Of a stretch of DNA of 34,331 nucleotides, positions 5,950 to 33,714 are shown piece after piece (positions within the stretch are counted from its first letter, which is position 1; each line of letters starts with the position of its first letter). Position numbers and translations under genes: made by a program. Source of the DNA: a virus; the IMG/VR virus record IMGVR_UViG_3300012920_000125, positions 1-34,331 of that record; one strand, given 5' to 3'. The notes beneath the pieces were generated by a model. The model saw nothing but the letters and a program-made list of their open reading frames with translations, was not told the origin of the DNA and did not search any database.

Positions 5950-6789
5950 ATGAGTAATTTAGTAAAACATCCATTTATCATATTTAAAAATGCATTAACA
6001 GATAAACAATGTGCTGATATTATTAGAATAGGTTTGTCTAAAATGACTTTAGTTTCATCTAACAAAGGTGAAGACTCTATAAAAGCAAGAACGCTAGATC
6101 AAAAACAAAAAATAAATGACACTGCTGTTCCTATGGCAGATGTAACTTACGAAGATTTACAAAATAAAAATTTTAAACATTACGTTAGAGATAGTAGTGT
6201 ATCGTGGTTAAATGATAAATTTATTTATGATATGATACATCCCTTTGTACAAAAAGCAAATATAGATGCAGGTTGGGGTTATCAATGGGATTATTCTGAA
6301 CAATGTCAATTTACAGTTTATAATGAAAAACAATTTTACAATTGGCATGCTGATGGTGGAGGTGATGCACACGCAGCCTGTAAACCTTTAAGAAAAATAT
6401 CTGATGGAGTTTATAAAGAACTTGCATGGAATTTTTCTAAAAAAGAATTATTAAAAAATGAAGATGGTAGTTATATTGAAAGAGATGCAAAAATGAAAGA
6501 AGATGGAACACCTTTAGGTTATTGTTCTGAAAATAAAAATATGTGGGGTAAAGTTAGAAAATTATCAGTTACAGTTAATCTAACTAATCCTGAAAATTAT
6601 GAAGGCGGTGATTTAAAATTTGATTTAGGTCCACACAGAAAAGAAGGTAGATATAAAATATCAAATGAAGCAAGAGAAAGAGGTTCTATTGTTGTTTTTC
6701 CATCTCATGTATTTCATCAAGTAACACCAGTAACAAAAGGCACACGATATTCATTAGTGATGTGGAATGTAGGTTGGCCATTTATTTAA
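5950..6789 (+). CDS. 2-oxoglutarate/Fe(II)-dependent oxygenase (prolyl-hydroxylase-like)
   Basis: A 279-residue enzyme of the 2OG/Fe(II) double-stranded beta-helix superfamily. The metal triad is visible as H133-x-D135 (FYNWHADGGG) with a distal H256 (SHVFHQVTPVTKGTRYSLV), and R266, ten residues later, is placed to bind 2-oxoglutarate. The block YEGGDLKFD (about 217-225) is the usual core strand. Between HxD and that strand lies an insertion of roughly 60 residues (about 140-200), larger than in the short PKHD hydroxylases. Family members use O2 and 2OG to hydroxylate proteins, nucleic acids or small molecules; the substrate cannot be told from sequence. It starts a run of three oxygenase genes. 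Confidence 0.85.
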   Translation: MSNLVKHPFIIFKNALTDKQCADIIRIGLSKMTLVSSNKGEDSIKARTLDQKQKINDTAVPMADVTYEDLQNKNFKHYVRDSSVSWLNDKFIYDMIHPFVQKANIDAGWGYQWDYSEQCQFTVYNEKQFYNWHADGGGDAHAACKPLRKISDGVYKELAWNFSKKELLKNEDGSYIERDAKMKEDGTPLGYCSENKNMWGKVRKLSVTVNLTNPENYEGGDLKFDLGPHRKEGRYKISNEARERGSIVVFPSHVFHQVTPVTKGTRYSLVMWNVGWPFI

Positions 6790-6797
6790 GGAGTAAT

Positions 6798-7397
6798 ATG
6801 AAAAGTCCAGATGAAGTATTAGATTATAAAGGTGATAAGATACACACAAACAAAGATTTTTGCTCAGTGTTGTATTCAGATTTTTTAACAGATGTACATG
6901 TAAAAGCAATTAAAGATTCAATATTACCTGATTTATGGTTATCAGGCGAAACAGTTAAAGGTAGTGTTGATAAATCATTAAGAAATGTTAGACAACAAGT
7001 GTGTACAATGAATGAAAAAGGTTGGCCTTTAGAACAAATATTAGAGTTTGCTAGACAAGCAAATAATAATAGGTATAAGTTTGAACTACAAGGATTTTTA
7101 TCTTATGACGTGCCACAGATTATGGAATATGATGTAGGTGGTCATTATGATTGGCATATTGATGTAGGTAATGAAGTACCAAATAGAAAGTTAAGTTTTA
7201 CAATACAACTATCTGACTCGTCTGATTATGAGGGTGGTGACTTAGAGTTTTTAAATACAAATGTAAAAAAAGAACATTTAAGAAAAAAAGGTGTTGCAAT
7301 AATTTTTCCATCTTTTTTACCTCATAGAATCACACCAGTTACAAAAGGTGTTAGACATGCTATAGTAGGTTGGATACATGGAGAAACATTTAAATAA
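6798..7397 (+). CDS. 2-oxoglutarate/Fe(II)-dependent oxygenase (PKHD-type)
   Basis: A 199-residue product from ATG 6798, chosen because AAGGAG at 6788-6793 is well placed. An earlier in-frame ATG at 6762 would overlap the previous gene by 28 bases. The PKHD-type pattern Y-x2-G-x2-Y-x2-H-x-D is present (Y111 to H120 and D122), with YEGGDLEF (about 144-151), distal H176 and R186, as in the upstream paralogue (both have FPS...H..TPVTKG.R). The close resemblance of the C-terminal halves to those of the gene at 5950 suggests divergence from a common ancestor. The stop codon overlaps the start of the third oxygenase by one base (TAATG), so translation is likely coupled. Substrate unknown. Confidence 0.88.
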   Translation: MKSPDEVLDYKGDKIHTNKDFCSVLYSDFLTDVHVKAIKDSILPDLWLSGETVKGSVDKSLRNVRQQVCTMNEKGWPLEQILEFARQANNNRYKFELQGFLSYDVPQIMEYDVGGHYDWHIDVGNEVPNRKLSFTIQLSDSSDYEGGDLEFLNTNVKKEHLRKKGVAIIFPSFLPHRITPVTKGVRHAIVGWIHGETFK

Positions 7398-8068
7398 TGC
7401 AAGTAGAATATTATTTTCCAACTCAAATATATTTTAAAGACTTAGACATTGACAATGAAAGTCTAGCGAAAAAAATAAGAGATTGGCGAGATAGAGATGA
7501 AGGTATAACAAGATCAAATAGACTAGGTTGGCATAGTGCAATTGATATGCATCACAGAGATGAATACAAAGATTTTACAAATGCTTTATTTAATTCAATG
7601 CGAGAAGTAATGGACAAAGAGTGTTATCATCCTAATTTAGAACCTCTTATAGGTACAATGTGGGCAAATGTTAATGAAAAATATGCTTATAATAGTACAC
7701 ATGTTCATCCAGGCTCTTTATGGTCAGGTGTTTACTATGTTACTGCACCTGAAGATAGTGGTGACTTATTAATAAAAGATCCAAGATCAGGACCTCAAAT
7801 ATTAGATCCACGTAGAGATGAAAAGAAAGAAAGACCAAGACAATTATGGACTGAGGTAAAATATAAACCTACGGTGGGTAGGCTTATAATATTTCCAGGT
7901 TGGTTACCACATGAAGTAGCACCAAATCAAAGTGAAGATGAGAGAATATCAATATCTTTTAATACAAATACTAGTTGGCAAAAAAATAAGTATGTAAAAG
8001 TTGAAAGAAAAGGGCATGAAACTGGTGGTAATATAACTGAATCTACGTTCAAAAACAGATATAAATAA
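7397..8068 (+). CDS. Putative 2OG/Fe(II) oxygenase of the TIGR02466-like family
   Basis: A 223-residue protein. The N-terminus (EYYFPTQIYFKDLD) and the block MWANVNEKYAYNSTHVHPGS, followed by LWSGVYYV, fit the TIGR02466/2OG-FeII_Oxy_5 family. The first metal site appears as H102-V-H104 instead of H-x-D. The distal site is H172 (FPGWLPHEVAPNQSEDERIS) with R183 eleven residues later as the probable 2OG ligand. Marine T4-like phages often carry members of this family; no substrate is established. It shares one base with the preceding oxygenase gene. Its last codons contain the late promoter of the next gene (8060-8067). Confidence 0.85.
   Translation: MQVEYYFPTQIYFKDLDIDNESLAKKIRDWRDRDEGITRSNRLGWHSAIDMHHRDEYKDFTNALFNSMREVMDKECYHPNLEPLIGTMWANVNEKYAYNSTHVHPGSLWSGVYYVTAPEDSGDLLIKDPRSGPQILDPRRDEKKERPRQLWTEVKYKPTVGRLIIFPGWLPHEVAPNQSEDERISISFNTNTSWQKNKYVKVERKGHETGGNITESTFKNRYK
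8060..8067 (+). promoter_or_regulatory. T4-type late promoter box TATAAATA
   Basis: Exact TATAAATA embedded in the last codons (AGA TAT AAA TAA) of the third oxygenase gene. It drives the structural gene at 8088 with a short leader that includes AAAGAGGG at 8072-8079 as the ribosome site. Confidence 0.75.
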
Positions 8069-8462: not shown

Positions 8463-9719
8463 ATGTCTGATAATATACTAGAAAACTTACTAAACATCAA
8501 AGAGCAAGTTGTTAAAAAGAGCAATAATGAAGATAAAAAATTAGCTCTGTTAGAAGATGTGTTTTCTATATCTAAATTAGAGAGTGCAAAAACAAATAAA
8601 AATCTAAAAGAAAATGAAGTTAATCTAGTAGACTCATTATTAGGTTTAGCAGAGTCATTTAAATCATTACCTGAAAAAACAGTAAAAGAAATTGTAGTAT
8701 CTAATAATGATGCAAATATATTTGAAGATTTAACTAATTTCTTAACAACGACTAGAAACAATATAACATTAAAAGAAAATCCTTTAATGGCTGATGCAAC
8801 CAAAGCTATCAGTAATGCATTAACACCTAAACATTTAAAACCTGTATCTGATTATGAAATAGATAAGTTTAGTGTAATGGAAAAAGTTACTAAGACTGCA
8901 AAATCAATTAAAGAACAAATTGATACTGAAGACTTTACGTTAGATCAATTACAAAAAGAATTTAGTAGGTTCAAACAACTTACAACACTTCAATTACAAT
9001 CACTTGGCGGTGGTGGTAGCACAAAAATATCCAATATGGATGATGTTGATGTTTCAGGACAACAAGATGGATACGCATTAAAATATAATGCATCAACAGG
9101 TAAATATGACTTTGGTGAAGTTGCAAGTGACTTATCTGCTGTTAGTCAAAATATTATACCAGACGGTGATGGCACTAGAGATATAGGTTCAACTGCTAAA
9201 GCATTTAACAATGGATATTTTAAAAATGTTTATGTAGAGGGTTCTACTTTAGAAGTAAGTACAGACGCAACTTTAACAGGTAACACAACATTAGGTAATG
9301 CAAGTACAGACACTATTACAGTAAATGGTAGATTTACAACTGCGTTAGTACCTGATACAAACGTTGCATATGATTTAGGAACATCATCATTAAGATGGAG
9401 AGATATTTACTTGTCAGGTAATACAATTGACCTTGCAGGTGCAACTATATCGGGTGATGGTACAGGTGCAATTACTATATCTGCTTCTGGTGCAACACTA
9501 CCTGTAGGTTCAAAAGTTGGTACTTCATCAATTGCGGCCGCTGATGCAAACACTGGTGTTGTTACTAAATCAGTACCATTATTTACGGCTGCTGGAGGAT
9601 TATCATCTGCGGCTACAACATTTACAATGGCCGCTGGATCTAGTCAGGCCTCTGTGTTTACTGCATTTACAAAAGCAAATGGTACCACACAAAGTAAATT
9701 TGAATTGTTTAGTTTTTAG
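8463..9719 (+). CDS. Tail-fibre-like structural protein
   Basis: A 418-residue product with two parts. Residues 1-180 are helical and charged (NILENLLNIKEQVVKKSNNE; TLDQLQKEFSRFKQLTTLQL), probably a coiled-coil shaft or attachment domain. A GGGGS hinge follows at about 182-186. The rest is fibre sequence, with SNMDDVDVSGQQDGYALKYN (a motif common in phage fibres) and two related beta repeats, IIPDGDGTRDIGSTAKAFNN...VEGSTLEV and LVPDTNVAYDLGTSSLRWRDIYLSG. The C-terminus (QSKFELFSF) ends with alternating aromatics. No enzymatic domain is visible. It could be a long or short tail fibre or a fibre connector. Confidence 0.7.
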   Translation: MSDNILENLLNIKEQVVKKSNNEDKKLALLEDVFSISKLESAKTNKNLKENEVNLVDSLLGLAESFKSLPEKTVKEIVVSNNDANIFEDLTNFLTTTRNNITLKENPLMADATKAISNALTPKHLKPVSDYEIDKFSVMEKVTKTAKSIKEQIDTEDFTLDQLQKEFSRFKQLTTLQLQSLGGGGSTKISNMDDVDVSGQQDGYALKYNASTGKYDFGEVASDLSAVSQNIIPDGDGTRDIGSTAKAFNNGYFKNVYVEGSTLEVSTDATLTGNTTLGNASTDTITVNGRFTTALVPDTNVAYDLGTSSLRWRDIYLSGNTIDLAGATISGDGTGAITISASGATLPVGSKVGTSSIAAADANTGVVTKSVPLFTAAGGLSSAATTFTMAAGSSQASVFTAFTKANGTTQSKFELFSF

Positions 9720-9756: not shown

Positions 9757-11094
9757 ATGACAGCAAAAACACCAATTAGAACGGTATTTGATGGTGAAGG
9801 AAATGCAACAGGTTTAGCAGAATTTCAGTCTGGTGAATTTGTAGGTTTAACTCATGGTGGTTTAGGTGCTTCCTTATCTATCGGCTCAGCAGGACAGGTT
9901 TTAAAAGTCAATTCAGGTGGCTCAGCGTTAGAGTTTGGAGCTGTTGAAGCCATTGTTAATATAGATAACGCTACAAATTTAGAAAGTGCTACACTCGCTT
10001 CTACTGATAAATTTTTAGTATCTGATGGAGGTACTGAAGGTCGAGCAACGTTAGCTCAAATTGCGACTGCTACAAAAGATACAACTGTTACACTTACAAA
10101 TAAAACACTTTCAGGTGCATCAAACACTTTTTCAAATATACCTACTAGTGCAATATCATTTTCTGGATCAACAATTAGTGGTATAACAAATTTAACTGCT
10201 GGTGGTATTAATATTGTAGGAAACTCAATCACTTCAGCAGACTCAACCGTTATTCAAATGGGTGAGAGTTTAAGTATAACAGGTAGTTTAACACAATCTG
10301 GTAATACAATTACATTAGGTACAAATACCTCTGGTAGAATTTTAGTTGCTGATGGATCAGGTTTTACTTCGCAAGATGTTACTTCACTTGCAGAAATATC
10401 ATCTGTTGCAAATGATGATGTATTTTTGGCAATTGATACTTCAGGTGGTGGTCTTAAAAAAATTGCAAGATCGGCTGTTGTATCAGGACTTGCATCATCA
10501 AGTGCCATATCAAATGTAGTAGAAGATACAACTCCTCAACTTGGTGGTGATTTAGATGCACAAGGTAATGATGTAGAAGATGTGGGTTATTATTCTCACA
10601 GATCACCAGATGCTACTGTTACACAAACTTTAGCAGTTACAGTTGTAACTAAAACAACTGAACATACTGCATATGGTGATGGTTCATCAAGTGGTTATGC
10701 AATTAACGGACATGAGGGACCTGTATTACAATTATCACAAGGTGTATATAAATTTGACCAAGCAGATAGTTCAAACAGTGGTCACCCATTAAGATTTTAT
10801 GATACGGCAGATAAGAATGCTGAATATACAACAAATGTTACGACTTCAGGTACACCTGGACAAGCAGGTGCTCATACAACTATAACAGTTACAAAAGCAA
10901 CTCCTTCAGTTTTACATTATCAATGTTCCGCTCATGCAAACATGGGTAGTGTTGCAAATGTAGTTGGTAGTGAATCGCCAAGAGTTACAGATGGTTTATC
11001 AGGCGAAAGTGGTGTTAGTTTAACTATGCCATCAGCATCTGGTACAATAGGTACTCAGGCATTTTGTATTGCACAAGCAATCGCATTAGGTTAG
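9757..11094 (+). CDS. Tail-fibre-like protein with a C-terminal cupredoxin (type-1 copper) domain
   Basis: A 445-residue protein. Residues 1-65 (FQSGEFVGLTHGGLGASLSI, GQVLKVNSGGSALEFG) and repeats such as VTLTNKTLSGASNTFSNIPT (about 111-130) are classic marine phage fibre sequence. About residues 318-403 look like a plastocyanin/amicyanin-type domain: GPVLQLSQGVYKFDQ, then GHPLRFY with H343, a long loop, then LHYQCSAHANMGSVANV with C390, H393 and M396. The Cys-x2-His-x2-Met spacing is that of amicyanin, and with the upstream His it makes a full type-1 copper ligand set. The C-terminus QAFCIAQAIALG matches the protein at 1395. Copper binding is inferred from ligands only; the domain may be just structural. 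Confidence 0.72.
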   Translation: MTAKTPIRTVFDGEGNATGLAEFQSGEFVGLTHGGLGASLSIGSAGQVLKVNSGGSALEFGAVEAIVNIDNATNLESATLASTDKFLVSDGGTEGRATLAQIATATKDTTVTLTNKTLSGASNTFSNIPTSAISFSGSTISGITNLTAGGINIVGNSITSADSTVIQMGESLSITGSLTQSGNTITLGTNTSGRILVADGSGFTSQDVTSLAEISSVANDDVFLAIDTSGGGLKKIARSAVVSGLASSSAISNVVEDTTPQLGGDLDAQGNDVEDVGYYSHRSPDATVTQTLAVTVVTKTTEHTAYGDGSSSGYAINGHEGPVLQLSQGVYKFDQADSSNSGHPLRFYDTADKNAEYTTNVTTSGTPGQAGAHTTITVTKATPSVLHYQCSAHANMGSVANVVGSESPRVTDGLSGESGVSLTMPSASGTIGTQAFCIAQAIALG

Positions 11095-11119: not shown

Positions 11120-11938
11120 ATGGCAATACCAGCCACAAGGGAAACACTAAAACAATACGCATTAAGAAATTTAGGTAAGCCTGTTATTGAAATAAATGTT
11201 GATGACGATCAACTAGAAGATAGAATTGATGAGGCCATACAATATTTTCAGCAGTATCACTATGATGGTATTAGAAGAACATATTTAAAATACAAGTTAA
11301 CATCTGCCGACAAAACTAGATTATCTGCAAAAAATCCTGTAAGTGAATCTGCAACTGACAGTGTGTCAGGTAACTCAACAACTTGGTACGAAGATAATAA
11401 TTATCTTGTAGTTCCATCAAGTGTTATATCTGTAATAAACATATTTCCTTTTTCAGATAAAGGTAATTTAAATCTATTTGATGTTAGATACCAATTAAGA
11501 TTAAATGATCTTTATGACTTTTCTTCAACAAGTGTAATAAATTACGATATAGTATTAAGACATTTAGATTTTTTAGATCATGTATTAGTAGGTGAAAAAC
11601 CAATCAGATTTAATCAACATGATAATAGATTATATATTGATATGGATTGGACAAACGATTTAGCAACAGACGAGTATATTGTGATTGAGTGTTATCGTAA
11701 ATTAGACCCAGCAACTTATACAGATGTTTTTAATGACATATACTTAAAAAGATATGTAACTGCTTTATTTAAAAAACAATGGGGTGCTAATTTATCTAAA
11801 TTTGATGGTGTAACTATGATAGGTGGTGTGCGATTAAATGGTCAACAATTGTACTCAGAAGCATTAGCAGACTTAGAAAAACTAGAACAACAAATCAGAT
11901 CAACTTACGAATTAAATCCAGCAATGATGATAGGATAA
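11120..11938 (+). CDS. 13: Neck protein gp13
   Basis: A 272-residue product, a little shorter than T4 gp13 (309). The start MAIPATRETLKQYALRNLG followed by PVIEINVDDDQLEDRIDEAI and QYFQQYHYDG is the hallmark of gp13 in T4-like marine phages. The middle carries a hydrophobic VVPSSVISVINIFPF segment and the C-terminus ends ELNPAMMIG. In T4, gp13 and gp14 form the neck complex that closes the filled head and joins it to the tail. A ribosome site TTAGGAG (11107-11113) precedes the ATG. The gene ends 4 bases before gp14, giving the usual gp13-gp14-gp15 order. Confidence 0.93.
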   Translation: MAIPATRETLKQYALRNLGKPVIEINVDDDQLEDRIDEAIQYFQQYHYDGIRRTYLKYKLTSADKTRLSAKNPVSESATDSVSGNSTTWYEDNNYLVVPSSVISVINIFPFSDKGNLNLFDVRYQLRLNDLYDFSSTSVINYDIVLRHLDFLDHVLVGEKPIRFNQHDNRLYIDMDWTNDLATDEYIVIECYRKLDPATYTDVFNDIYLKRYVTALFKKQWGANLSKFDGVTMIGGVRLNGQQLYSEALADLEKLEQQIRSTYELNPAMMIG

Positions 11939-11942
11939 TGCC

Positions 11943-12728
11943 ATGGCCGTTAATCATTATTTTCAAGGAGGTAACGGAATTGGCAGTCAATCTGAAAAAA
12001 GACTTTATGAAGATTTAATCATAGAGAATTTAAAAATTCACGGACACGACTGTTATTATCTTCCAAGAACAATAGTAAACCAAGACTTAATATTAGGTGA
12101 AGATGTTGCATCAAAATTTGATGACTCTTATCTATTAGAAATGTATATGGAAACCACTGAGGGTTTTGCAGGTGAACAAGAATTAATTAATAAGTTTGGT
12201 TTAGAGATTAGAGAAGATACAACATTTACAATATCAAAAAGAAGATTTGAAACGGCAGTTGACAATCCTGCAAACTTAATTAAATCAGGTAGACCAAATG
12301 AAGGTGATATAATTTATATGCCTTTAATGAATAGTTTTTTTGAGATACAGTTTGTAGAAGATCAGGAACCTTTCTTTCAACTAGGTCAATTACCTGTTTA
12401 TAAATTAAGAGTAACACGTTGGGAATACAGTTCAGAAAGAATTGATACTGGAATTACAGATATTGACGCTGCCGAAGACAAATATACATTAGATCAATTG
12501 CAACATCAAGTATCATTAGAAAATGAAGTTGGATCATTATTGTTAGAAAACGATAGTGTAGATGGTGAAAATAATTATTTCTTACTTGAAACTTATGCTT
12601 TACAAACTCAATCAACTTATGCAGATAACACTGATTTAGATAATCAGGCAGGTTTTGATACAGCATCCACAGCAGATGATGTACTTGATTTTACTGAACG
12701 TAACCCGTTTGGAGATGTGGATTTTTAG
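11943..12728 (+). CDS. 14: Neck protein gp14
   Basis: A 261-residue product, near the length of T4 gp14 (256). The N-terminus MAVNHYFQGGNGIGSQSEK, followed by RLYEDLIIENLKIHGHDCYY and LPRTIVNQDLILGED, is diagnostic for this family. The C-terminal 60 residues are acidic and Asn/Asp-rich and end with DFTERNPFGDVDF, a tail that resembles other marine gp14 proteins. It is a head-neck component that acts with gp13 after DNA packaging. It is directly followed by gp15 with no gap: the TAG stop ends at 12728 and the next ATG is at 12729. Confidence 0.93.
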   Translation: MAVNHYFQGGNGIGSQSEKRLYEDLIIENLKIHGHDCYYLPRTIVNQDLILGEDVASKFDDSYLLEMYMETTEGFAGEQELINKFGLEIREDTTFTISKRRFETAVDNPANLIKSGRPNEGDIIYMPLMNSFFEIQFVEDQEPFFQLGQLPVYKLRVTRWEYSSERIDTGITDIDAAEDKYTLDQLQHQVSLENEVGSLLLENDSVDGENNYFLLETYALQTQSTYADNTDLDNQAGFDTASTADDVLDFTERNPFGDVDF

Positions 12729-13529
12729 ATGTTTGGAACTTATTTTTATAACGAAAGTATGAGAAGAATGACCATTGCATTTGGTCAGATGTTCAATAAC
12801 ATACAAATAAAAAGAAAAGACTCAAATGGAAGTGTTGTACAGTCTATTAGAGTACCACTTGCATATGGTCCTAAAGAAAAATTTTTAGTTAGATTAAATC
12901 AACAACCAAGTTTGAACAACAGAGAATTTGCAATTACTTTACCAAGAATGGGTTTTGAAATATCAGGTATTGAATATGATGCAAGTAGAAAATTAAATAG
13001 AATACAAAAATTTAAAAGAGTTAAAACAGATAAAGAAGGTAAGGTAATGGATTATAACTATATGCCTGTGCCTTACAACATATCTTATAACTTGTTTATA
13101 TTTACTGCATCTGCCGAAGCAGGTTTACAAATCGTAGAACAGATATTACCATTTTTTCAACCCGATTATACTGTAACTGTAAATGCAATACCAAGTTTAA
13201 ATATTAAAAGAGATGTACCTATTGTATTAAAGACTGTTAATTATGATGACAATTATGAAGGTGAATTTACTAAAAGAAGAGCAGTAATTTACACATTAGG
13301 GTTTACTGCAAAAACATACTTGTATGGACCTGCATCTACTCAAAAAACAATTAAAGAAGTGCAATCAGATTTATATTCTGATACGCCTACATCAACAAGA
13401 GAAAGTAGAATTGTTATTACACCTAATCCAACTAGTGCTGATGCAGATGATGATTTTGGATTTACAACAACAATAACAAATTACACAGACAGTAAAACGT
13501 ATAATCCTACTACAGATACAGACGAATAA
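12729..13529 (+). CDS. 15: Tail sheath stabiliser / tail completion protein gp15
   Basis: A 266-residue product (T4 gp15 has 272). The start MFGTYFYNESMRRMTIAFGQ, followed by MFNNIQIKRKDSNG, and the block QQPSLNNREFAITLPRMGFE are typical of gp15. It forms the ring that caps the tail tube and sheath and provides the head-binding face. The C-terminal 60 residues (after FTAKTYLYGPAS) are Thr/Ser/Asp-rich and probably flexible. Together with gp13 and gp14 it forms a compact neck operon. The next gene, a halogenase, starts 20 bases later behind a separate late-type box. Confidence 0.93.
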   Translation: MFGTYFYNESMRRMTIAFGQMFNNIQIKRKDSNGSVVQSIRVPLAYGPKEKFLVRLNQQPSLNNREFAITLPRMGFEISGIEYDASRKLNRIQKFKRVKTDKEGKVMDYNYMPVPYNISYNLFIFTASAEAGLQIVEQILPFFQPDYTVTVNAIPSLNIKRDVPIVLKTVNYDDNYEGEFTKRRAVIYTLGFTAKTYLYGPASTQKTIKEVQSDLYSDTPTSTRESRIVITPNPTSADADDDFGFTTTITNYTDSKTYNPTTDTDE

Positions 13530-13549: not shown

Positions 13550-15013
13550 ATGAAACACTTTGTTATATTAGGCAGTGGCACAGCTGGTTGGCTAACTGCA
13601 TTATTCATTCGTAAGATATTACCTCAATCAAAAATTACAGTCGTAGGAAGTAAACAAGTTGGTATTGTAGGAGTTGGTGAAGCAACCACGCCTCATATCA
13701 TAGGTTTTTTACAATTTATAAATGTCAATCCATTTGATTTTATAAAAAAGACTGGTGGTACAATTAAACAAGGCATTAGTTTTGAAAATTGGAATGGTGA
13801 TGAAAAAAAATATTTTCATGGATTTTTAGAAAAAAATGAAATGAATACATTTCATATACCAAATGTTTTTGACAATGATTGTATGAGTCACTATTTAAAT
13901 CTTATAAACAAAAAAGGTTTAGATTATAACGAATATGTTTATGGTGCAAAGTTATCATATGAAAATAAAGTTGATACAAAAAATATGGGTTTTGCTTTAC
14001 ACTTTGACACACATTTATTATCAAAGTATTTACAAGACATTGCTACTCAAAGAAATATTAATTTTGTAGATGGTAAATTTAGAAATGTTGAAACAAATGA
14101 TAAAAATGATATAACAAAAATAATACTAGAAGATGAAAGAGAAATTGATTTAGATTTTATTTTTGACTGTACAGGATTTGCAAGATTAATAATTGATAAA
14201 CACTATAAAGTAAAATGGAATAGTTATTTAAAACATTTACCTATGAAAAAAGGTATACCTTTTTATTTAAAACAAGATGAAGATATAATGCCATATACAC
14301 AAGCAATTGCAATGAAAAATGGTTGGATATGGAAAATACCCTTACAACATAGATATGGTGCAGGTTATATATTTGATAGTGATTACATAACACCAGATCA
14401 AGCACAACAAGAAGTAGAAGAGTTTTTAGGACATGATATTCAAATTAATAAACTAATATCATTTGAAGCAGGTCGTTATGAAAAGTATTGGGTTAATAAT
14501 TGTATTGCTGTAGGATTATCAGGTGGTTTTATTGAACCACTAGAATCAACTTCAATATTTTTAACTTTACAACAACTATCAATATTAAGAGATTACTTGC
14601 CATCTTTAGTAGGTAATGATATAAAAAACAAAGAATATTATAATAGAGTTGTTTGTCACAATAGTGATGAGTGTAGAAATTTTGTTTACTTACATTATCT
14701 AACTAAAAGAAATGATAGTCAATTTTGGAAAGATTTTAAACAAAAAAATTTACCACCAGACAATTTTAAAGAAACATTAACTAAACTAAAAGATAATAAT
14801 TTTTCAAATTTAGATTTAGATCAAAACTATTGCAATGCTAATTTTGCAGATTTTTCATTTAAGTATGTTTGTAATGGATTACAATTATATGAAAAAGAGA
14901 TTGACATAACAGGACTTGAAAACGTAGTACCTACAGTAGAAGATTATAAAAAACAAATAGATTATAAAGTTGCAAATGCACAGTCGCATAAACAGTTTTT
15001 ACAAACACTATAA
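13550..15013 (+). CDS. Flavin-dependent halogenase (tryptophan halogenase family)
   Basis: A 487-residue FAD-dependent halogenase (PF04820 family). Visible features are the FAD-binding GSGTAGW (8-14), GVGEATTPHI (about 41-50), K73 (GGTIKQGISFENW) aligning with the catalytic lysine of PrnA, the W-x-W-x-I-P signature (259-264) and EPLEST (329-334), whose second Glu (E332) aligns with the catalytic Glu of PrnA. All key residues are therefore kept. Family members use FADH2, O2 and halide to make a bound hypohalous species that halogenates an aromatic substrate. The best-known phage member, VirX1 from a marine cyanophage, prefers iodide. No flavin reductase is visible here. It lies between gp15 and gp16 and is probably late-expressed; the substrate is unknown. 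Confidence 0.9.
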   Translation: MKHFVILGSGTAGWLTALFIRKILPQSKITVVGSKQVGIVGVGEATTPHIIGFLQFINVNPFDFIKKTGGTIKQGISFENWNGDEKKYFHGFLEKNEMNTFHIPNVFDNDCMSHYLNLINKKGLDYNEYVYGAKLSYENKVDTKNMGFALHFDTHLLSKYLQDIATQRNINFVDGKFRNVETNDKNDITKIILEDEREIDLDFIFDCTGFARLIIDKHYKVKWNSYLKHLPMKKGIPFYLKQDEDIMPYTQAIAMKNGWIWKIPLQHRYGAGYIFDSDYITPDQAQQEVEEFLGHDIQINKLISFEAGRYEKYWVNNCIAVGLSGGFIEPLESTSIFLTLQQLSILRDYLPSLVGNDIKNKEYYNRVVCHNSDECRNFVYLHYLTKRNDSQFWKDFKQKNLPPDNFKETLTKLKDNNFSNLDLDQNYCNANFADFSFKYVCNGLQLYEKEIDITGLENVVPTVEDYKKQIDYKVANAQSHKQFLQTL

Positions 15014-15021: not shown

Positions 15022-15486
15022 ATGAGTAAATTAGAGGACAAAGTTAACGAGATATTAGGTATAGACCCTAAAGAATCTAAAAAAGAAGTTGTATCTACAC
15101 AACAAGAATTTAAGGCACCAGTACCTCGTAACGAAGATAAAAACAAACCTGATGTAGATAATGATTATGAGTATAGTAGAGAAAACTATTATAATTTAAT
15201 TGATAAAGGTAACGAAGCAATACAAGGTATATTAGATGTTGCAAAAGAAGGTCAACATCCTAGAGCATACGAAGTTGCAGGTGCTTTAATAAAAAATGTT
15301 GCTGATACTGTAGATAAACTACAAGACTTACAAAAAAAATTAAAAGATTTAAAAGAAGTGCCTAAGTCAGCAAACCCACAAATTAAAAATGCTTTGTTTG
15401 TAGGCTCTACTGCTGAGTTACAAAAAATGTTGAAAAAGAAAAGTGAGAAGATAGTTGATGCAGACAGTGAAGACAAATCTGAATGA
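15022..15486 (+). CDS. 16: Small terminase subunit gp16
   Basis: A 154-residue product, close to T4 gp16 (164). The start MSKLEDKVNEILGIDP and the acidic linker before NDYEYSRENYYNLIDKGNEA, then ILDVAKEGQHPRAYEVAGAL and DTVDKLQDLQKKLKDL, give the gp16 layout: a central helical oligomerisation hairpin (about residues 52-115) with flexible ends. It recognises packaging substrate and stimulates gp17. In the T4 group gp16 normally lies beside gp17; here two genes intervene (15458-16392). The promoter box is 5 bases upstream of the ATG. Its 3' end overlaps the following oxygenase gene by 29 bases. Confidence 0.88.
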   Translation: MSKLEDKVNEILGIDPKESKKEVVSTQQEFKAPVPRNEDKNKPDVDNDYEYSRENYYNLIDKGNEAIQGILDVAKEGQHPRAYEVAGALIKNVADTVDKLQDLQKKLKDLKEVPKSANPQIKNALFVGSTAELQKMLKKKSEKIVDADSEDKSE

Positions 15487-16108
15487 ATATAATTTACCTT
15501 ATGATAGTTTTATAGGTGGTTGGTATATACCTGATTATTTGTGTGATGGATTAATTAATTATCATAAACAGTCAGATAAAAAAGTGGCAGGTAAAGTTAA
15601 TTCAACCAAAGCAGGTAATCGTACTGATTATACAGATAGTGCTCACAAAGTATCAACAGATGTTTATATTGATCCACTTGATAAAGAAAACTCTAAGTTG
15701 ATTAGAGAATATATGGCACATTTAGGATTGTGTTTAAAACAATATACAGAAAGATATCCTTTTGTTGATGAGATGTCTCCTTATGGTCTTGTTAGTCCTT
15801 ATAATATTCAACATTATAAACCTGGTGAAGGTTTTAAAAGTTGGCATTATGAAAGAGGTAGTATGAGAACATCAAAAAGAGTATTAGTTTTTATGACTTA
15901 TCTAAATGATGTTAAAGATGCAGGTACAGAGTTTTTCTATCAAAAACTAGTAACACCTGCAAAAAAAGGTTTAACTGTAATATGGCCAACTGATTTTACT
16001 CACACACATAAAGGTGTTATAACAAATAAAGATGAGAAGTATATTTGTACTGGTTGGTTTGATTTATTAGATGATGAACAAAAGAAATACTTACATAAAA
16101 TAGACTAA
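15458..16108 (+). CDS. 2OG/Fe(II) oxygenase inserted between terminase genes
   Basis: A 216-residue product. I take ATG 15458 as start (a TTG three bases earlier adds one residue). Both overlap the end of gp16 by about 30 bases, and the only ATG nearer the gp16 stop is in a dead frame. The metal ligands appear as H130-Y-E132 (FKSWHYERGS), an H-x-E variant, with distal H184 (DFTHTHKGVITNKDEKYI) and K194 ten residues on for 2-oxoglutarate. YLNDVKDAGTEFFYQ is the usual core strand. Sequences of this shape, with KYICTGWFDL at the end, are common in marine phages. The last base of the TAA stop is the first base of the next ATG (TAATG). Confidence 0.85.
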   Translation: MQTVKTNLNEYNLPYDSFIGGWYIPDYLCDGLINYHKQSDKKVAGKVNSTKAGNRTDYTDSAHKVSTDVYIDPLDKENSKLIREYMAHLGLCLKQYTERYPFVDEMSPYGLVSPYNIQHYKPGEGFKSWHYERGSMRTSKRVLVFMTYLNDVKDAGTEFFYQKLVTPAKKGLTVIWPTDFTHTHKGVITNKDEKYICTGWFDLLDDEQKKYLHKID

Positions 16109-31585: not shown

Positions 31586-32119
31586 ATGGCAGCAAAAAAA
31601 GAACATTACGTAAATAATAAAGAATTTCTACAGGCAATGATTGATTATAAAAAATCAGTCAATAAAGCAAAAAGAGAAAAACAAAACAAACCATCAGTAC
31701 CTAATTATATTGGTGAGTGTTTTTTGAAGATTGCAAATCACTTATCTTACAGACCTAATTTTATAAATTATACTTTTAGAGATGATATGATTAGTGATGG
31801 TATAGAAAACTGTTTACAATATTTGGATAACTTTGATCCTAAAACATCAAAAAATCCTTTTGCTTATTTTACACAAATCATTTTCTTTGCATTTGTAAGA
31901 AGAATACAAAAAGAAAAGAAACAAACAATCATCAAACATAAACTTATATTAGATAATAACTATGATGATGTTGCATTAAACCCTAATGATGATAGCGATT
32001 TTAAAAATCAGTTTAGAGAATACTTAGCAAAAAATTCAAATATTCAAATAGAACAACCAAAGAAAAGAAAAAAATCTGTAAGAAAAAAATCTAAAAAGTC
32101 TTTAGATTTCTTTATGTAA
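31586..32119 (+). CDS. 55: Late-transcription sigma factor gp55
   Basis: A 177-residue product (T4 gp55 has 185). PSVPNYIGECFLKIANHLSY, then FRDDMISDGIENCLQYLDNF and NPFAYFTQIIFFAFVRRIQK, is the conserved sigma domain 2-like region that melts the TATAAATA box. The C-terminus is a Lys/Arg-rich tail (KKRKKSVRKKSKKSLDFF), where T4 gp55 carries its clamp-binding motif; the final hydrophobic LDFFM may do this. It drives the late promoters found throughout the window and is itself placed behind a sigma70 promoter. It shares one base with the second halogenase gene (TAATG). Confidence 0.94.
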   Translation: MAAKKEHYVNNKEFLQAMIDYKKSVNKAKREKQNKPSVPNYIGECFLKIANHLSYRPNFINYTFRDDMISDGIENCLQYLDNFDPKTSKNPFAYFTQIIFFAFVRRIQKEKKQTIIKHKLILDNNYDDVALNPNDDSDFKNQFREYLAKNSNIQIEQPKKRKKSVRKKSKKSLDFFM

Positions 32120-33714
32120 TGAAAACAAAAATAGACGAGATAGTTATCGTTGGTGGTGGTACAGCTGGATGGGCAACTGCCACCATGTTATTAGATAGAA
32201 CAGATGCAAACGTTACTGTAGTTGCATCAAAAGAAATACCTACTATAGGTGTGGGTGAAAGCACAACAGCACGTTTTCATGGATTATTAAACATAAGCAA
32301 TGGTAGAGTTGAAAAAGATAATATTTCTTTTTTAAATGAAACAGGTGCAACTTATAAATTTGGTATTAAACACACTGATTGGAGAGTTAAAGGTGAACAT
32401 TTTTATTCTCCATTAGGTGATAATTATCAAAATCACACAACGTATCCAACACCAGAATATGATAATTTAAGAACTTATGCAACGTCAAAAGGTTTATCAC
32501 AATCAGAGTTTTATAATAGTTATCTTTTAGAACAAAATAAAGTTAACTGTGTTGATATTAATGATGACAAGTATAAAAATATTTTTGGTGATAATAAAAA
32601 AATAAAATTAAATGTACCTAAGGCCTATCATTTAGATACGTATAAAACAGGAGTTTATTTAAAAGATAGATGTTTACGATCAAAAGGATGCAATTACATA
32701 GATGATGAAGTTGTTAGTTGTAAGAAAAATGATTTTGGTTTTATTCAACATTTAATTACTAAAACAGGTAAACAAGTAAGTGGTGATTTGTTTATTGATT
32801 GTACAGGATTTAAAAGATTATTAATTAGTAAATTTTATGATAATGAGTTTATATCTTATAAAGATAATCTATTAGTTAACAGTGCTATACCTTTTCATCT
32901 TAAAAATAAAAAAGATGAACCTATTAGAACATACACTCATGCATGGGCTCAAAAGTATGGTTGGTTGTGGGAGATACCTTTACAAGAAAGAAAAGGTTGT
33001 GGTTATGTTTACTCAGATAACCATACTACAGATGATGAGGCGCTAAAAGAAATAGAACAAGTTTATGGTCACAAAATAGAACCTAACAAAGTAATCAAGT
33101 TTGAAACAGGTAGAGTTAAACAACCTTGGATTAAAAATGTATTATCAACTGGTCTTGCAACTGCTTTTATAGAACCGCTAGAAGCAACATCAATACATTG
33201 CACAGTAACACAAATTGCAGAGTTTATTGAAAATTACTACACCAAAACTATGAACTTTAGTAATCAAAGTTTAATTAATATGTACAATGATAACATAGGA
33301 AATATGTGGGATGATTACAGAGATTTTTTAATTATGCATTATCAATCAAAAAGAATAGACACACATTTTTGGATTGATTCGTCAAATATAAAAAGACATA
33401 CACATTGGTTGAAGTCACGTTTAGAAATATGGAAAGATAGAATGCCAAGGTTATTTGATTATCAAGCACCAAACAAAGGTAGAGGTTTTTATGATTTTGG
33501 TCTAACTTTATATTTACAAATATTAATGGGTATGAAGTTACTTAAAAAAGAAATGGCAGAAAAAGAACTAAAAGAATTTGGTATATATGACACTACAAAA
33601 GAATGGTACGATAACTTTAAAAACTATTCTCAATATTGTGTTGAAAGATCATTAACAACAAATGAATATTATAAAGACCCTAACAAATACGAGAACGAAT
33701 ATAAAACAATATGA
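32119..33714 (+). CDS. Flavin-dependent halogenase, second copy
   Basis: A 531-residue halogenase (PF04820 family). FAD motif GGGTAGW (12-18), GVGESTTARF (about 44-53), K80 (GATYKFGIKHTDW) at the PrnA catalytic lysine position, W-x-W-x-I-P at 282-287 and EPLEAT at 352-357, with E355 as catalytic Glu equivalent. The residue after it is Ala where PrnA and the copy at 13550 have Ser. It is longer than the first copy, chiefly in the central and C-terminal parts. The start overlaps the gp55 stop and its own stop overlaps the gp47 start (ATGA), so it is inserted seamlessly in the operon. The two copies are clearly divergent. Substrate unknown. Confidence 0.9.
   Translation: MKTKIDEIVIVGGGTAGWATATMLLDRTDANVTVVASKEIPTIGVGESTTARFHGLLNISNGRVEKDNISFLNETGATYKFGIKHTDWRVKGEHFYSPLGDNYQNHTTYPTPEYDNLRTYATSKGLSQSEFYNSYLLEQNKVNCVDINDDKYKNIFGDNKKIKLNVPKAYHLDTYKTGVYLKDRCLRSKGCNYIDDEVVSCKKNDFGFIQHLITKTGKQVSGDLFIDCTGFKRLLISKFYDNEFISYKDNLLVNSAIPFHLKNKKDEPIRTYTHAWAQKYGWLWEIPLQERKGCGYVYSDNHTTDDEALKEIEQVYGHKIEPNKVIKFETGRVKQPWIKNVLSTGLATAFIEPLEATSIHCTVTQIAEFIENYYTKTMNFSNQSLINMYNDNIGNMWDDYRDFLIMHYQSKRIDTHFWIDSSNIKRHTHWLKSRLEIWKDRMPRLFDYQAPNKGRGFYDFGLTLYLQILMGMKLLKKEMAEKELKEFGIYDTTKEWYDNFKNYSQYCVERSLTTNEYYKDPNKYENEYKTI

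Follow-up and report, generated by a model that had tools for sequence, protein, structure and literature searches.

The window analysed here, meaning the whole stretch of 34,331 bases of a virus record, contains a tail-fibre gene and, just downstream, genes for the neck and tail sheath of a virion (Table 1). T4-like markers were also found elsewhere in the window (portal gp20, tail sheath, tube, terminase and protease), and its source is considered to be a T4-like marine phage. Residues 283-401 of the fibre protein matched PHROG 30742, annotated as 'tail fiber protein', with an E-value of 5.4e-39, a significant profile match that meets the criterion for membership of that family. The fibre gene is placed immediately upstream of two neck/connector genes and a sheath stabilizer gene, for which reason it was assigned to the virion module. 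A nearly identical gene order was observed in the Methylophilales phage Melnitz-3, whose corresponding fibre also carries the domain described below.

This domain lies in the C-terminal part of the fibre, where the family profile matched positions 10624-10956 (E 9e-56), and it was the only match of the profile in the window record. A preliminary description, made from the sequence alone, had proposed a type-1 copper (cupredoxin) domain with H343, C390, H393 and M396 as ligands in a 445-residue protein. The placing of the four residues held exactly; the proposed domain bounds, residues 318-403, held only in part, as the conserved unit begins earlier.

Two tryptophan halogenase genes are also found in the window, at 13550-15013 and 32119-33714 (PF04820, E 2e-109; PHROG 2928, E 8e-108), the former being located within the structural module. 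Matches to 2OG-Fe(II) oxygenases were observed in four genes (5950-6789, 6762-7397, 7397-8068 and 15455-16108), the first three of which form a tandem array a short distance upstream of the fibre genes.

Table 1. Coordinates of the fibre gene, its putative copper ligands and its neighbours in the window
Feature	Coordinates	Strand	Remarks
Neighbouring fibre-like protein without the domain	8463..9719	+	PHROG matches including tail fiber
Tail-fibre protein ORF	9757..11094	+	445 aa; cupredoxin-like domain near the C-terminus
Cupredoxin-like domain	10624..10965	+	Residues about 290-403 of the fibre
H343, putative copper ligand 1 (GHPLRFY)	10783..10785	+	Invariant, 81/81 representatives; paired with the plastocyanin His by hhalign
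C390, putative copper ligand 2, thiolate (YQCSAHANMG)	10924..10926	+	78/81; directly after model strand 102-106
H393, putative copper ligand 3 (YQCSAHANMG)	10933..10935	+	78/81; lost only jointly with Cys
M396, putative axial ligand (YQCSAHANMG)	10942..10944	+	80/81; Met replaced by Gln in one other family member
Neck/connector proteins (Ad2-like, Hc2-like) and tail sheath stabilizer	11120..13529	+	PHROGs 211, 460, 227

Predicted fold and relationship to blue copper proteins

Structure prediction, which the preliminary description had proposed as a check, returned a confident cupredoxin fold for the window domain (AlphaFold2 on alignment A1; pLDDT 92), with nine strand elements in cupredoxin order. 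In this model, H343 is followed at once by a short strand, and the penultimate strand leads directly into the Cys, so that the Cys-His-Met loop connects the last two strands, as it does in plastocyanin. The ligand order expected of a cupredoxin, in which His is followed by Cys, His and an axial Met and the last three precede the final strand, was met. A Foldseek search of the PDB yielded only cupredoxin-fold proteins among the first 24 matches, headed by rusticyanins (prob 0.98, E 8e-3) and followed by multicopper oxidases and copper nitrite reductases. A compact family member, modelled from 37 sequences (pLDDT 95.5), gave as its best match a three-domain copper nitrite reductase (E 3.2e-4, prob 1.00, TM 0.55-0.60), with rusticyanin, plastocyanin and pseudoazurin at lower ranks, including a pseudoazurin carrying an engineered amicyanin loop. 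Cupredoxins accounted for 46 of the 50 best PDB matches of this member, a tally in which a coagulation factor VIII entry is counted for its cupredoxin-type domains, and the other four were SO1698. The Foldseek TM-scores reached only moderate values (0.4-0.6), and the rmsd was large outside the core. As far as a predicted model can tell, the requirement for a Greek-key beta-sandwich that has about eight strands and resembles solved cupredoxins is met, and there is little doubt that the domain adopts the cupredoxin fold; this remains a model prediction, and the distances between ligand side chains are not in evidence.

An ordinary Ig-like or lectin domain was considered and rejected. None of the Pfam matches of this kind (Ig_C17orf99, DUF7497, SpaA_3, CBM_4_9 and At5g54830) reached threshold, and they were scattered; the Foldseek ranking, which prefers cupredoxins, also disfavours such an identity. 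One BFVD relative of the domain bears the name of immunoglobulin-domain protein. Three other BFVD entries (A0A481Z6J5, A0A481Z7Q7 and A0A481YWX9), which are predicted 'beta-sandwich' proteins from giant viruses of pithovirus- and marseillevirus-like type, gave E-values from 7e-8 to 1e-6 against the phage domain model.

At the sequence level, the direct signal was weak. The window domain matched pseudoazurin 3tu6 in a phmmer comparison with an E-value of 0.0085, and the NCBIfam pseudoazurin model TIGR02375 with 16.0 bits (E 0.0074), not reaching its equivalog cut-off of 109.85 bits. PF00127 (cut-off 21.2 bits) was not listed for the window protein or for any of 25 relatives, nor was a match to it found anywhere in the window record, and family profiles run directly against the PDB in an HMM search gave E-values of only 0.1-0.24. 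Because of this weakness, the homology rests on a bridging protein, on profile-profile comparison and on the comparison of folds.

The bridge was found in the genome of Prochlorococcus MIT 9201, in which the family profile A3 retrieved a 134-aa protein (E 3.8e-7) with a signal-like N-terminus. This protein scores 29.4 bits against PF00127, above the cut-off, and also matches plastocyanins in the PDB; in its alignment with the phage family, the His, Cys and His residues correspond. Prochlorococcus PF00127-type proteins of this kind, 134-137 aa long and distinct from plastocyanin, were located at L252:457-861 (-), L253:403-816 (-) and L254:396-800 (+); with their signal-like N-termini, they link the phage family with blue copper proteins. 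When the family was compared by hhalign with 66 plastocyanin- and pseudoazurin-type sequences, a score of 29.0 (P 8e-5) was obtained with His, Cys and His again aligned, against 11.9 for the reversed control and no more than 16.7 across 30 column permutations. The expectation of homology to bona fide cupredoxins with aligned ligands was met, and the window protein is concluded to be a cupredoxin relative, yet one outside PF00127 as curated. Thus, the cupredoxin domain of the preliminary description is held up by sequence and predicted fold, being backed by the Foldseek fold, the PF00127 bridge, the profile-profile score and the rarity of ligand loss, while copper binding and the convergence of the ligands remain inferences.

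Conservation of the ligands and distribution of the module

The four ligands, H, C, H and M, were invariant in alignment A1, which comprised 25 sequences. Since the patterns used in gathering relatives can contain the Cys-His stretch, a second sample (A2) was drawn solely by the segment between H343 and C390 and was blind to the ligands. It contained 76 distinct domains, 75 of them complete at the site, and the full HCHM set was present in 72/75, which excludes a chance motif. In the three exceptions, Ser and Asp replace the Cys and the second His. This Ser/Asp group consists of fibre domains (L131, L133 and L175, with YYQSDND or YYESDND) and provides a natural control lacking the site.

Among 81 non-redundant representatives, for which the counts per column are given in Table 1, HCHM was found in 78, HSDM in two and HNNY in one; the ligand columns were among the most conserved, and positions 391, 392, 394, 395 and 398 varied widely. 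A larger set of 207 distinct complete domains comprised 202 HCHM, three HSDM, one HNNY and one HCHQ, so that the five departures correspond to four joint losses of Cys and His and one change of Met to Gln. It should be considered that part of this larger set was collected with patterns including Cys and His, and that all these counts refer to related sequences and not to independent events. Neither Cys nor the second His was lost alone in the sets of 75, 81 and 207 domains. Such all-or-none retention of the pair matches what a shared metal site would predict, metal binding itself being inferred. The preliminary description had stated that frequent loss of Cys or His in homologues would refute the copper site, and no such frequent loss was seen.

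The single HCHQ case was found in a Prochlorococcus single-cell assembly (L243, open frame (+) 3393, residues 1502-1632), and an axial change from Met to Gln is known in stellacyanin (PMC4059628). Pro follows the first His in 74 of the 81 representatives, as does Pro344 in the window fibre. Degenerate copies were observed in P-HM2 gp7, MED4-213, ACG-2014d and S-M1, in which the first His is replaced by Lys or Arg and the Cys-His-Met loop is absent.

The preliminary description had also regarded such a domain as unusual for a fibre, and this claim failed, the module being common in marine phage fibres. The domain was recovered by tblastn in 210 phage records, from phages of Synechococcus, Prochlorococcus, Pelagibacter and Methylophilales, and the proteins that contain it bear the annotations tail fibre, gp9 connector, gp7 baseplate or virion structural protein. 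Among the reference loci with the domain are those of Kyanoviridae, the S-TIM group, a 39-kb pelagiphage and the Autographiviridae podovirus P-SCSP2, and hundreds of further copies occur in marine metagenome viruses of IMG/VR. A scan of bacterial genomes revealed it in SAR11 and Prochlorococcus assemblies and, in marine Bacteroidetes, within open frames some 5,500 to 9,200 aa long; a few short MAG contigs among all these matches may be viral. These giant Bacteroidetes frames (L226, L230, L232, L234 and L241) are probably surface proteins. No copper-type name is assigned to the domain above threshold in Pfam, NCBIfam or PHROGs, and no description of a cupredoxin domain in a phage fibre was found in the open-access literature searched. 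The domain is concluded to be a large, widespread and unnamed family that is not peculiar to the window phage.

A putative copper site on the virion and its alternatives

The computation shows the fold, the family, the conservation of the ligands and the all-or-none retention of Cys and His. From these results, the His/Cys/His/Met site is likely to be a functional metal site, in the absence of binding data. That the metal is copper is an inference favoured by a modest margin, and the same guarded preference applies to the reading as a whole, namely that the fibre carries a copper-binding cupredoxin module, no copper having been observed. Should copper be bound, a role in adhesion or stability is the probable one; this role is less certain than the module itself, and the presence of copper in the virion and a function in stability or adhesion instead of electron transfer are likewise inferred.

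In the proposed explanation, the C-terminal part of the fibre would be a cupredoxin-fold module with an intact type-1 ligand set (His343, Cys390, His393 and Met396) and an amicyanin-like loop, serving as an exposed building block in marine phage fibres, in baseplates and in the giant surface proteins of some marine bacteria. Each copy would take up one copper ion, probably in seawater after release or at the cell surface, given how little free copper is present in the cytoplasm during virion assembly. With the ion bound, the two ligand loops, which lie at the same end of the sandwich, would be locked and may then stabilise the host-contacting surface or form part of it. A generic role of this kind is considered likelier than participation in an electron-transfer chain because the module recurs on exposed virion and bacterial surfaces and has no redox partner nearby. 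The preliminary description had suggested a redox or copper-dependent adhesion element; adhesion or stability is the inferred preference here, and a redox function is possible but unsupported.

Other explanations may account for the conserved site. The module could be a cupredoxin-fold structural element that holds zinc or iron in the virion without involvement of copper. In the cytoplasm, the site of virion assembly, copper is less available than zinc or iron, and iron in fibres has a precedent in the His-x-His pairs of T4 gp37 (PMC11705849). However, the ligand set and the loop spacing are those of type-1 copper, and blue copper sites tolerate a change from Met to Gln, the sole axial substitution seen, so this explanation is judged unlikely. 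Still less probable is a fold kept without any metal, in which the four residues would be retained for folding or another non-metal reason and the domain would be an Ig-like decoration of cupredoxin descent. The persistence of copies without the site (the first copy of P-HM2 gp7, ACG-2014d, S-M1 and the L131/L133/L175 group) and the immunoglobulin name of the BFVD relative speak for it; against it, the ligands are kept or lost as a set, with Cys and the second His never lost singly, and the positions between them vary freely.

A redox-active copper, by which the fibre would swap an electron with a component of the host surface or signal contact through copper reduction, is also regarded as very unlikely. 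Cupredoxins act mainly in electron transfer (PMC4059628), and relatives of the domain exceed the plastocyanin/azurin cut-off. However, no redox partner, second cofactor or electron-transfer gene was identified beside the fibre gene, and the occurrence of one and the same module in fibres, in gp9 and gp7, and in giant surface proteins of bacteria points to a generic unit exposed on surfaces. A bolder reading, itself unlikely, holds that redox-active or host-recognised copper on the fibres of marine tailed phages is used in adsorption or contact sensing, for instance by docking on surface proteins with which SAR11, cyanobacteria or methylotrophs handle copper, and that phage particles constitute a separate reservoir of protein-bound copper in surface seawater.

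The preferred reading remains a copper-binding, non-enzymatic module with a role in adhesion or stability. Cyanophages, pelagiphages, methylotroph phages and a podovirus all retain the complete type-1 set and, if this reading is true, copper would belong to the structure or the function of virions that abound in the ocean, tying phage attachment to trace-metal chemistry. The papers found on metal in phage fibres discuss only iron (T4 gp37 and the Trojan Horse hypothesis). The finding also names a widespread module now hidden under 'tail fiber' and 'hypothetical protein'. PHROG 30742, 27200, 693 and 677 (tail fibre, gp9-type) contain the domain and are annotated only as tail fibre, connector or unknown, with no mention of a copper-type domain.

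Comparison with known metal-binding proteins

The predicted cupredoxin fold and the His...Cys-His-Met order are common to the phage domain and to plastocyanin, pseudoazurin, amicyanin (PF00127) and rusticyanin, and the Cys-x2-His spacing is that of plastocyanin and pseudoazurin. Cys-x2-His-x2-Met is the ligand loop of amicyanin. The window loop, CSAHANM, matches it and the family keeps the spacing, so this claim of the preliminary description held; the amicyanin loop CTPHPFM is the one named in PDB entry 2vmj, among the Foldseek matches. Unlike the curated small blue copper proteins, the phage domain scores below the PF00127 and pseudoazurin cut-offs, has long loops between the first His and the Cys, and is embedded in a fibre instead of being a free secreted carrier. 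Plastocyanin, azurin and amicyanin carry an Asn directly after the first His, which bonds to the Cys loop. The window fibre does not meet this criterion and, since Pro replaces the Asn, its second-sphere bonding must differ from that of the small blue copper proteins. Multicopper oxidases have His-Pro at their type-1 site.

The closest true PF00127 relatives found were the secreted Prochlorococcus proteins (L252-L254) and flavobacterial PF00127 domains (L255-L257), which resemble the phage domain in having HP after a strand and YYxC-x2-H. However, the Prochlorococcus proteins differ in their signal-like N-terminus, their Cys-x2-His-x4-Met spacing and their location outside the virion. Among phage fibres, iron binding by His-x-His pairs is established for T4 gp37 and has been predicted for an Alteromonas phage as well (PMC11705849). 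These systems share with the window fibre the presence of conserved histidines in a tail fibre and a proposed role in attachment (PMC11705849), but they involve octahedral iron held by paired histidines, whereas the window fibre presents a His/Cys/His/Met set within a single domain of predicted cupredoxin fold.
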